Origin: Acidihalobacter ferrooxydans
GTDB taxonomy: Bacteria > Pseudomonadota > Gammaproteobacteria > DSM-5130 > Acidihalobacteraceae
Direction of reading: 5' to 3'
NCBI RefSeq assembly: GCF_001975725.1
Contig: NZ_CP019434.1
Span: 930,001 to 994,000 of the forward strand
Length of the DNA: 64,000 bases
The position numbers were made by a program, and so were the translations under genes. Below are positions 27,845 to 33,754 of this stretch, one piece after another. The notes under the pieces were generated by a model. That model had not been told where the DNA came from. It was given only the letters and a program-made list of their open reading frames with translations, and did not search any database. How positions within the stretch are numbered: the stretch's first letter is position 1; every line of letters begins with the position of its first letter.

Positions 27845-28789
27845 TCAGCGATCAGTTGCGAGCAGGGGGCTGGCGTTTTGCGCATGCCAGTCGAGAATGC
27901 CGCTCCAGGCTTCCTGCGCGGTTTCCGCGTACCAGAACAGCTCGCAGTCCTCTGCGTCGATGCTGCCTGCTTCGGCGAGAAAGTCCGCGTCGAACACGCC
28001 GCGCCAATACGCCTCGCCGATCAGCACCACGGGGATTGGCGCGGCTTTGCGCGTCTGGATCAGGGTCAGCGCGCCGAACAGTTCGTCCAGCGTGCCGAAA
28101 CCGCCCGGCAGGGCAACGATGGCCGCCGCGCGTTTCATGAAATGCAGCTTGCGCAGGGCAAAATAGTGGAACTGCAGGCACAGCCCCGGCGTGAGGTACG
28201 GGTTGGGGTACTGCTCACGCGGCAGCTTGATGTTGAGGCCGACGGTTTCGGCGCCGGCATCGCAGGCGCCGCGGTTGGCGGCTTCCATGCCGCCGGGACC
28301 GCCGCCGGTCATCACCACCAGGCCCGGGTCGCCGGCCGCACCGACCAATCGGCCGAGTTCACGGCCGACGTCGTAATAGCGCGAGAGGTCCATGCGCCGC
28401 TCGGCCAGCCGCAGGGCGCGGGTGCGCGCCACATCACCGGGATGGGCGGCGGCTTCGCGATGCGCGGCTTCGAGTTCGCGCCGGGCGGTGTCCGGCTCGC
28501 GCAGACGCGTGCTGCCGAATATCACAATGGTGCGCTCGATCCCATGCGCACTCAGGGTCTGCTCGGCCTTGAGGTAATCGAGTTGCAGACGCAGGCCGCG
28601 ATTGGCGTCGGTGTGCAGAAAGTCGACGTCGCGGTCGGCCTCGGCGTATGAGGGATGTTGCATGATCGCCCGCAGACGCGCCGCCGTGTCGGCATCCTCG
28701 CTGGCTGACTTGGGTTGTTCCCAGGGCAGCGGTTCGCGGCGCTCGACCGGATGCGCCGGCGGCGGTACCTTGTTTCGTGTGTGATTCAT
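27845..28789 (-). CDS. LOG-family (TIGR00730) Rossmann protein
   Basis: Soluble protein of 314 aa with the lysine-decarboxylase-like/LOG signature: GGGPGGMEAANRGA and LPGGFGTLDELF. In LOG enzymes these bind the nucleotide and catalyse release of ribose 5-phosphate from cytokinin or AMP-type nucleotides. The first 90 residues are an extension not found in short LOG proteins; the longer version is of the PpnN/YgdH-related or LOG-like group. It is the last complete gene of a minus-strand run, downstream of the ppsA relic. Its physiological substrate here is unknown. Confidence 0.85.
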   Translation of the reverse strand: MNHTRNKVPPPAHPVERREPLPWEQPKSASEDADTAARLRAIMQHPSYAEADRDVDFLHTDANRGLRLQLDYLKAEQTLSAHGIERTIVIFGSTRLREPDTARRELEAAHREAAAHPGDVARTRALRLAERRMDLSRYYDVGRELGRLVGAAGDPGLVVMTGGGPGGMEAANRGACDAGAETVGLNIKLPREQYPNPYLTPGLCLQFHYFALRKLHFMKRAAAIVALPGGFGTLDELFGALTLIQTRKAAPIPVVLIGEAYWRGVFDADFLAEAGSIDAEDCELFWYAETAQEAWSGILDWHAQNASPLLATDR

Positions 28790-28798
28790 GTGGGCTCC

Positions 28799-29077
28799 TT
28801 AGCTGGCGCGTGGCGTGCGTGAGAGTTTCGCCTCCGGTTCGAGCACCTGACGCGTGGTAGCGATCACGGTGTCGGGGTTGATGCTCATCGACTCGATGCC
28901 GAGTTCGACCCGGTATTGTGCCATCTCGGGATAGTCGGACGGGGCCTGGTCACACAGCCCTGAGTGGATGCCGTTGCGGCGGCAGCCCTCGACCGCCAGC
29001 CGGATCATTTCCTTCACGCCCTCGTCGTATTCGTCATCGTCGAAGGCGACGATCTCGCTGCCGTTGTGTGCGATTGA
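28799..29077 (-). pseudogene. ppsA: Relic of the C-terminus of phosphoenolpyruvate synthase
   Basis: The last ~90 codons read SEIVAFDDDEYDEGVKEM, then RRNGIHSGLCDQAPSDYPEM and VELGIESMSINPDTV, which is the end of PpsA (conserved CGQAPSDYPE with its catalytic Cys, here CDQAPSDYPE; then LGIDSISLNPD). The remaining ~700 residues, including the swivelling His domain and ATP-grasp, are missing: the pseudoenzyme gene at 29119 lies directly upstream. A deletion probably removed most of ppsA. PpsA makes PEP from pyruvate, so its loss removes a gluconeogenic or pyruvate-recycling step from this cluster. Confidence 0.75.
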
Positions 29078-29118: not shown

Positions 29119-30314
29119 TCAGTCGGTTGCGGCTTCCGGTTCCAGAGCCGCGACCAGCGCCGAAAGCGGTGAGTCGATGGCGGTCAGGTGGTTGATCAGC
29201 ATGATCAACGCGAGCAGCGCATTGGCCGTGCCGGGGAAATCGCTGCTGGCATAGTGGCCGGCGGCGTCGAAATAGAGGCCGGGGCGACCGGCGTGCAGGA
29301 AGGTCCAGGCGGCGGCCGGTCCTCCGGGCAGCGCGTCTGTCGTGAGGCCGGCGCGGGTCAGAGCGGATGCCATCTGTGGAGGCAGCCCGCTGTCGTGCAC
29401 CACGTGCAGGCCGGGCTGTTCCTGTGCCAGCGCGAGGGCCAGTACGGTGCCGATAGCATGGGGCGAAACGGGCTGGCCGCGCTCGTCGGTGATGGCGAGA
29501 AGGTCGCCGTTGGCATTCAGCGATGCACCGAGATGACAGCCGTTGGTGCTGACGCACGTGCCGACAGCTGCGCGGGCTTGCGGCGAGAAGGGATCGGGGC
29601 CGCGCGTCGGCAATTTGGAGTCGGGTTTGAAGCCGAGGCGCCACAGGCGCAGTAGCCGGTAGTGGGGCATGACGGCATCGAACTCGGTGCCGGTCAGGCC
29701 GTTGCCGGCGTCGAGGCACAGCTTGAAAAGGCGCTGTGGGCGCAGTTGCTGCCGCAGCCAGGCGGCATAGGCGGCCTGCGGTTGAGCGCGGCGTAACACC
29801 GGATTACACGGGTTGCGGAACAGGTCGTTGAGATCGTAGACGGTCATGGCGTCGATGACCTGAGCCGCCGCGACCGGCGCGGCGCCCCTCCCGCACAGGC
29901 GCATCCCGTTCCAATCGGTCGGGGCGCAATCGCCGGTGACCATGATGCCGCCGTTCAGGCCGGCATCGGCCACGTACCATTCCAGCTGCGGTGTGGTGCA
30001 GGCGCCGATGTGCGTGACGTGATGGCCGCCCGAACGCAGGCCCAGACTGACGGCTTCAGCCAGCGAGGGCGAGGTTTCGCGTATGTCGTAGCCGATGGCG
30101 AACGTGCCGTCGCCGGGGGCCAGCAGGTCGCCGAAGGCGCAGGCCAGCGGCATGATCTGGCGGCAGCGCAGAGTCTGTCCGGTGCGGCCGAGGAGGCTGT
30201 AGCCATCGATCAGATCCTGCAGCTGCGAAAGGCTGGCGGTTTCCATCGCTACGTCTCCTGGGCCGGCGGAGCGCGTGTCAGCGTCCGCCGCCGTGATTCG
30301 CTCGTTTTCCGCGT

Positions 30315-30318
<4 letters not shown>
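29119..30318 (-). CDS. Phosphomannomutase/phosphoglucomutase-like pseudoenzyme
   Basis: Protein of 399 aa with the phosphohexomutase fold but altered catalytic motifs. Where active enzymes have TGSHNPPDYNG, this one reads TGDCAPTDWNG, so the phosphorylated Ser is Asp and the following His and Asn are Cys and Ala. The metal loop DGDGDR is NANGDL, losing two of three Asp ligands and the Arg. The sugar-binding GEMSGH is FDAAGH. The scaffold (LDAGNGLTG, DERG) remains and there are no stops, so it is probably expressed as a non-catalytic or altered-function protein. The start ATG overlaps the ATPase stop (ATGA). A regulatory or sugar-phosphate-sensing role is inference. Confidence 0.75.
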
Positions 30319-32945
<2,627 letters not shown>

Positions 32946-32956
32946 GGCAGTCTCCT

Positions 32957-33754
32957 TCAGGCTGCAATCATGCCGTTGGCGAAATTCGCCTCGGCATAGG
33001 GGAAAACGACGTCGGGATTGGGACGGATCAGCTCGTGGTCCTTGTCCGCATAGTCCAGGCGGTTGAGCAGGTCTTTGATGATGCTCAGGCGGGTGAGTTT
33101 CTTGTCGTCGGCGCGGGCGATGGTCCACGGCGCGAGCGCGCTATGGGTGCGGGCGAACATCGCGTCGCGGGCCTCGCTGTAGTCGCGCCAGTGCTTCTGC
33201 GCGACGGCATCGATCGGACTCATCTTCCACTGTTTGAGCGGGTCTTTGCGGCGCGCGGCAAGGCGTTTCTTTTGTTCGTCCTTGCTGATGTCGAGGTAGT
33301 ACTTGATCAGATGGATGCCCGAGCGGATCAGCATCTGCTCGAAGGCCGGCACGGTCTCCATGAATTCCTCGTATTCGGCGTCGGTACAAAAGCCCATCAC
33401 GCGCTCGACACCGGCGCGGTTGTACCAACTGCGGTTGAACAGCACCATTTCTTCGGCCGCCGGCAGATGCGGCACGTAGCGCTGGAAGTACCAACTCGTG
33501 CGATCACGTTCGGAAGGCTTGCCCAGCGCCACCACGCGCGTCTCGCGCGGCGAGAGATGCTGGACGATGCGCTTGATGGTGCCGTCCTTGCCGCCGCTGT
33601 CGCGCCCTTCGAAGAGCACCAGAATGCGGTCGCCGTGGGCGATGATGTGTTTTTGCAGCTTGACCAGCTCGATTTGCAAGGCGAGCAATTCGTGTTTGTA
33701 GTCTTTTTTCGACGGGGTTTCGGGATACGGCGCGGGGGCTGGATGGTGGGGCAT
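32957..33754 (-). CDS. ppk2: Polyphosphate kinase 2 family protein
   Basis: Enzyme of 265 aa with the PPK2 motifs: Walker A-like FEGRDSGGKDGTIKR, the lid region RYVPHLPAAEEMVLFNRSWYNRAGVE, and KQWKMSPIDAVAQKHWRDYSEARD. PPK2 uses polyphosphate to phosphorylate GDP/ADP, or AMP in some classes, so it can regenerate nucleotide triphosphates from stored polyphosphate. It is the first gene of the operon with the proton ATPase, which suggests polyphosphate-derived energy feeding the pump. Two FNR-type boxes stand 95-124 bp upstream of its ATG. Confidence 0.92.
   Translation of the reverse strand: MPHHPAPAPYPETPSKKDYKHELLALQIELVKLQKHIIAHGDRILVLFEGRDSGGKDGTIKRIVQHLSPRETRVVALGKPSERDRTSWYFQRYVPHLPAAEEMVLFNRSWYNRAGVERVMGFCTDAEYEEFMETVPAFEQMLIRSGIHLIKYYLDISKDEQKKRLAARRKDPLKQWKMSPIDAVAQKHWRDYSEARDAMFARTHSALAPWTIARADDKKLTRLSIIKDLLNRLDYADKDHELIRPNPDVVFPYAEANFANGMIAA

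Follow-up and report, generated by a model that had tools for sequence, protein, structure and literature searches.

The locus and its truncated phosphohexomutase gene

The window, a stretch of 64,000 nucleotides of the Acidihalobacter ferrooxydans genome (contig NZ_CP019434.1, positions 930,001 to 994,000), contains genes for polyphosphate kinase 2 (PPK2), a P-type H+-ATPase and a truncated phosphohexomutase, which follow one another in this order and in the same direction, as described in the initial annotation (Table 1). The three altered motifs reported there (TGDCAPTDWNG in the serine loop, NANGDL and FDAAGH) were confirmed in the uninterrupted mutase frame.

Table 1. Features of the locus, in coordinates of the window
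Feature	Position	Strand	Basis or remark
LOG-like protein (TIGR00730 / Lysine_decarbox family)	27845-28789	minus	Pfam and NCBIfam; also downstream in relatives
Phosphoenolpyruvate synthase remnant, C-terminal 86 residues only	28808-29065	minus	Pfam and NCBIfam
ORF of the truncated phosphohexomutase, predicted pseudoenzyme	29119-30318	minus	399 codons, open frame
Probable coding region of the predicted pseudoenzyme	29119-30246	minus	375 aa, by start codon choice
FDAAGH, one-time sugar loop GEMSGH	29254-29271	minus	alignment
NANGDL, one-time metal loop DGDGDR	29500-29517	minus	alignment
Codon GAT, Asp130, phosphoserine position (Ser108 of P. aeruginosa PMM/PGM)	29929-29931	minus	alignment
Domain I block SLAEAVSLGLRSGGHHVTHI, residues 85-104, best conserved part of the truncated family	30007-30066	minus	family alignment
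Plasma-membrane-type P-type H+-ATPase	30315-32945	minus	TIGR01647, 962 bits; ATG at 32945 assumed, longest ORF to 33128
Polyphosphate kinase 2 (PPK2)	32957-33754	minus	Pfam and NCBIfam

Homology of the ORF to alpha-D-phosphohexomutases is, by sequence, beyond doubt. It was matched by Pfam PGM_PMM_I (PF02878, domain I) at 2.6e-17 (63.2 bits, cut-off 22.5) and by NCBIfam PRK09542, the CpsG/PgmG/AlgC type, at 1.2e-36 (126.8 bits vs a cut-off of 618), and the homology extends over domains I-III. Domain II (PF02879) scored just below its cut-off (28.3 vs 29.3 bits) and domain III had no Pfam match; both were aligned by the NCBIfam models and are predicted to be folded. Among solved structures, P. 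aeruginosa PMM/PGM (1K35) and X. citri PGM (5BMN/6NN2) come nearest in sequence and fold, the latter with about 22% identity in the fold alignment. Unlike enzymes of the CpsG/PgmG/AlgC type, the window protein lacks domain IV, which binds the substrate phosphate through an Arg-x-Ser-Asn-Thr loop, and no remnant of it was detected 3' of the stop codon in any truncated locus. The catalytic serine and histidine, the metal loop and the sugar loop are also replaced. Asp130 aligns opposite the catalytic serine of the X. citri and P. aeruginosa enzymes, in the motif T-G/A-S-H-N-P whose serine is present in 20/20 ordinary mutases compared, and N-A-N-G-D-L and F-D-A-A-G-H stand in place of D-G-D-x-D-R and G-E-M-S-G/A-H, respectively.

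The ATGA overlap with the ATPase gene, from which translational coupling had been proposed, is present at 30318. The coupling itself became doubtful because a strong Shine-Dalgarno sequence (AGGAG) stands 8 nt upstream of an in-frame ATG (30246) that agrees with the starts of the homologues; the protein probably begins there, about 70 nt past the ATPase stop codon. Scans for repeats and for promoters and terminators were uninformative, and a search for literature on this gene cluster in Acidihalobacter returned nothing useful.

Where the window has the phosphoenolpyruvate (PEP) synthase remnant, the loci of G004, a metagenome-assembled genome (MAG) of the same genus, and G152 carry an intact ppsA and a gene for a conserved protein of about 320 aa, pointing to a deletion in the window lineage. 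A complete PEP synthase relative is encoded elsewhere in the A. ferrooxydans genome. The 320-aa protein (L055:10185-11153, L018:4132-5088) had no Pfam or NCBIfam match, and its repeats may form an alpha/alpha-barrel of the prenyltransferase/cyclase kind; its gene adjoins the mutase gene.

Ordinary mutase genes are present elsewhere in the same genome: a canonical AlgC-type PMM/PGM at 2761 kb, with TGSHNPPEYNG, DGDGDR, GEMSGH and RPSNTTP, a GlmM-like gene, so named from a Pfam match and its motif, and an alpha-phosphoglucomutase gene.

Distribution, descent and selection

Twelve truncated copies were found in nine genomes, mostly of acidophilic or sulfur-oxidising bacteria, and 11 of them have an uninterrupted frame. 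The protein occurs in 5/5 genomes of the taxonomic family of the source; the other members belong to G244, Halothiobacillus sp. STB_50 (L060), HyVt-541 (L063) and G302 (L073), and L060 is the nearest homologue of the window protein (53%). A. ferrooxydans, G004 and G003 have two copies each. The second copy of A. ferrooxydans, at 1308 kb of its single contig of 3,448,835 bases, is 44% identical to the window copy and has transposase-like genes on both sides (L023:6565-10604); that of G003 also lies among transposase-like genes. Six loci in five genomes were recovered by a pattern scan of genome contigs with the family alignment, and the same scan with the window protein alone gave no match. Since no further member appeared in the orders of G244 and G302 or in 398 genomes of the phylum, the truncated family is rare in these samples, in which each species is represented by a single genome and coverage is incomplete. 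In open-access papers we found no bacterial pseudoenzyme of phosphohexomutase origin.

The 12 truncated proteins form a single clade (support 100/99), outside which the full-length proteins of G159, G152 and G004 (L013) branch in succession. This clade nests among full-length versions (L013, L028 and L027) that keep the serine, the Asp loop and E-M/L-SGH, indicating that domain IV was probably lost once and that the mutase was lost stepwise. The full-length protein of G159 already has Asp in place of the His after the catalytic serine. Among the truncated copies, the serine position is occupied by Gly in nine, His in L060, Ser in L073 and Asp only in the window; if L063 and L073 are sisters (90/70), the serine must have disappeared on two occasions or more. 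The metal loop disappeared independently in the window copy, L002, L026 and L006 and to some extent in the copies of G001-G003, and Asp-x-Asp-Gly-Asp-Arg is kept in the three nearest relatives of the window protein (L060, L005 and L009). Copies that keep this loop, as well as L073 with its serine, may have residual activity. It has to be noted that intact motifs in close relatives had been named beforehand as a sign of recent decay: SHNP is present in none of them, but the closest do keep the Asp loop.

The distribution of residues at the serine position lends no support to the proposal that Asp130 mimics a phosphoserine. The S108D mutant of PMM/PGM (PDB 2FKM) likewise has Asp at this position; it differs in that only this one residue was altered, by engineering, in a protein that has all four domains and continues to bind glucose-1,6-bisphosphate.

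Purifying selection persists on the truncated proteins. The values of omega (dN/dS) were 0.15 (0.10-0.20) for G002/G003, 0.24 for G002/G001, 0.44 (0.33-0.57) for window/G004 and 0.41 (0.31-0.53) for the second copies, and the bootstrap interval of every pair tested lay below 1; dS was at least 0.85 throughout, so these values are approximate, and the window/L060 pair was saturated. Neighbouring genes in the same species pairs gave omega values of 0.05-0.20. In neutral simulations, five to eight stops arose on average and no more than 0.2% of runs ended with an open frame. Altogether, the shared loss of catalytic residues, the intact frames, the conservation across species and the low omega values agree with the initial proposal of a pseudoenzyme under selection, as far as sequence comparison can assign one.

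These data bear on the alternative that a redundant mutase copy is decaying slowly under relaxed selection, bound for loss and kept open only by its position in an operon. Such a course would account for the loss of domain IV and the loops, for the eroded ppsA beside the window copy and for the transposases around the second copy of A. ferrooxydans. Part of the family may indeed be decaying, because omega is about 0.4 in the window genus, for the window copy roughly double the values of adjacent genes (0.16-0.20), and the ATPase-linked copy of G004 (L018:5046-6250) carries a single-base frameshift close to its N-terminus, possibly an assembly error in a MAG. As an explanation of the whole family, however, slow decay is unlikely: 11/12 frames are uninterrupted despite about 40-60% amino-acid divergence, including copies unlinked to the ATPase, no pair tested reaches an omega of 1, that of G002/G003 resembles the values of neighbouring enzymes, and one block retains 87% identity.

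Gene neighbourhoods and the H+-ATPase

The H+-ATPase gene lies directly upstream of the mutase gene in the window, G004, G152 and G159, and near it in G244 and HyVt-541. In the sister genus (G001-G003) the truncated gene is found instead near genes for alpha-glucan phosphorylase, a TetR regulator, a universal stress protein, DUF202 and DUF4010, and in Halothiobacillus it adjoins genes for a cNMP-binding protein, UspA and DUF202, with acetate kinase and phosphotransacetylase further along. The H+-ATPase gene of G001 lies 470 kb from the truncated gene, that of G003 is split (G003:C1:1870683-1872901), and none above the family cut-off was detected in G002; from the latter two cases, the pump seems to be in the course of being lost in the sister genus.

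That the protein is devoted to regulating the P-type H+-ATPase, its Asp imitating the phosphorylated serine, had been proposed initially, and the adjacency in four loci favours this. A role of this kind would be expected to go with constant linkage to, and presence of, the pump gene, and neither was constant. Two of the four adjacent genes (G152 and G159) encode full-length mutases, the Asp is unique to one copy, and G001-G003 retain the truncated gene although their ATPase gene is distant, split or undetected, as does Halothiobacillus sp. STB_50 without a neighbouring one, so that we consider a dedicated pump regulator very unlikely. The linkage of ATPase and mutase is old but not required, since full-length enzymes have it as well and, in one relative, the protein persists although no pump gene was detected. 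The common theme of the neighbourhoods is reserve carbon and energy stress rather than the pump.

A conserved domain I block and its proposed function

The best conserved part of the truncated family is the domain I block of residues 85-104, which reads SLGLRSGGHHVTHIG. Its mean pairwise identity was 87% in the truncated family vs 48% in 20 active-type mutases, and identity over residues 74-112 rose from 58% in ordinary mutases to 75% in truncated ones. The parts most conserved in the 20 ordinary mutases showed the reverse: 77% vs 48% for the serine loop, 66% vs 43% for domain II and 63% vs 34% for domain III. As the two sets are unmatched in overall divergence, the evidence lies in this inverted pattern and not in the absolute identities. 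A circular-shift test over residues 74-114 gave modest support (15/363 shifts reached the observed value); a 20-column scan gave stronger support, but it is post hoc and ignores dependence between columns. Fourfold sites were scarcely more conserved in the block than elsewhere (0.47 vs 0.40), indicating that selection acts there on the protein; gene conversion as the cause of the block was rejected on the same grounds. It is from this inverted conservation that we infer a non-catalytic function.

His99 and His103 of the block are also present in the full-length proteins of G159 and G152, and absent from L013 and AlgC, so this feature predates the loss of catalysis, as would be expected if an added function of domain I had outlived the mutase function. 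A changed catalysis, with a new active site built for instance from the conserved His99, His100, His103, Cys52, Cys171 and Cys261, would fit the near invariance of these residues in the truncated family and their rarity in ordinary mutases. Most of them, however, also occur in the full-length proteins of G159 and G152, whose metal and sugar loops are intact, and they are widely spaced in sequence, their clustering being hypothetical; a new active site is thus highly improbable. In two AlphaFold runs domains II-III were predicted with confidence, with domain I at a pLDDT of about 30, and the Foldseek TM-scores of 0.46-0.49 reflect this low-confidence domain.

The confident prediction of domains II-III could also favour a sugar-phosphate sensor, in which the cleft of domains I-III would bind a phosphosugar without turnover and signal to a partner. 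Lys or Arg at the NGxK position in 11/12 copies, the Asp loop in several and the reserve-carbon neighbours are in line with it. On the contrary, none of the 12 truncated copies retains Glu325 or the lysine of the KTGH-K loop, and Ser327 is replaced in 10/12. Domain IV is absent, and in PMM/PGM the affinity for ligands depends to a large degree on domain 4, which attracts the substrate phosphate (PMC5509744). We regard such a sensor as a tentative alternative with a small chance of being correct.

The reading we prefer, with a probability of about 0.5, is that of a non-catalytic binding or regulatory protein of a reserve-carbon and energy gene set. Its ancestor was a full-length phosphomannomutase/phosphoglucomutase encoded downstream of the H+-ATPase gene, within a set comprising PPK2, PEP synthase, acetate kinase, phosphotransacetylase and alpha-glucan phosphorylase. 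Domain IV was lost first and the catalytic serine and substrate loops afterwards, while other genes kept the mutase reaction and selection retained the rest of the fold, chiefly the one block of domain I. Through this domain the protein may dimerise with or dock on a partner from this set, be it the canonical PMM/PGM, the phosphorylase or another enzyme, and would in this way adjust sugar-phosphate or reserve flux. A precedent, although not a proof, for such a binding role is GlmM, which dimerises via domain 1 and does not need domain 4 to bind the membrane enzyme CdaA and inhibit it (PMC8573169). The likeness lies in the use of a phosphohexomutase fold for regulation by binding, with domain 4 dispensable and a domain 1 dimer; GlmM differs in being an active enzyme that binds CdaA/DacA through domain 2, whereas the partner of the window protein is only putative. 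A further extension, which we consider quite unlikely, is that the mutase fold was exapted in sulfur- and iron-oxidising Gammaproteobacteria as a sensor or regulator through the new His-rich domain I stretch GGHHVTH, which might titrate with cytoplasmic pH or bind metal and so tie reserve-carbon and polyphosphate metabolism to acid and energy stress.

The versions of this protein form a graded series, partly in one neighbourhood, that begins with full-length mutases with intact motifs, continues with truncated forms and ends with forms in which every active-site loop is gone; it illustrates how a metabolic enzyme turns into a pseudoenzyme. The conserved domain I block provides a testable prediction of where the retained function would sit, and the maintenance of the truncated gene in several bacteria, sometimes in two copies, suggests that the enzyme fold has been retained for a non-catalytic job.
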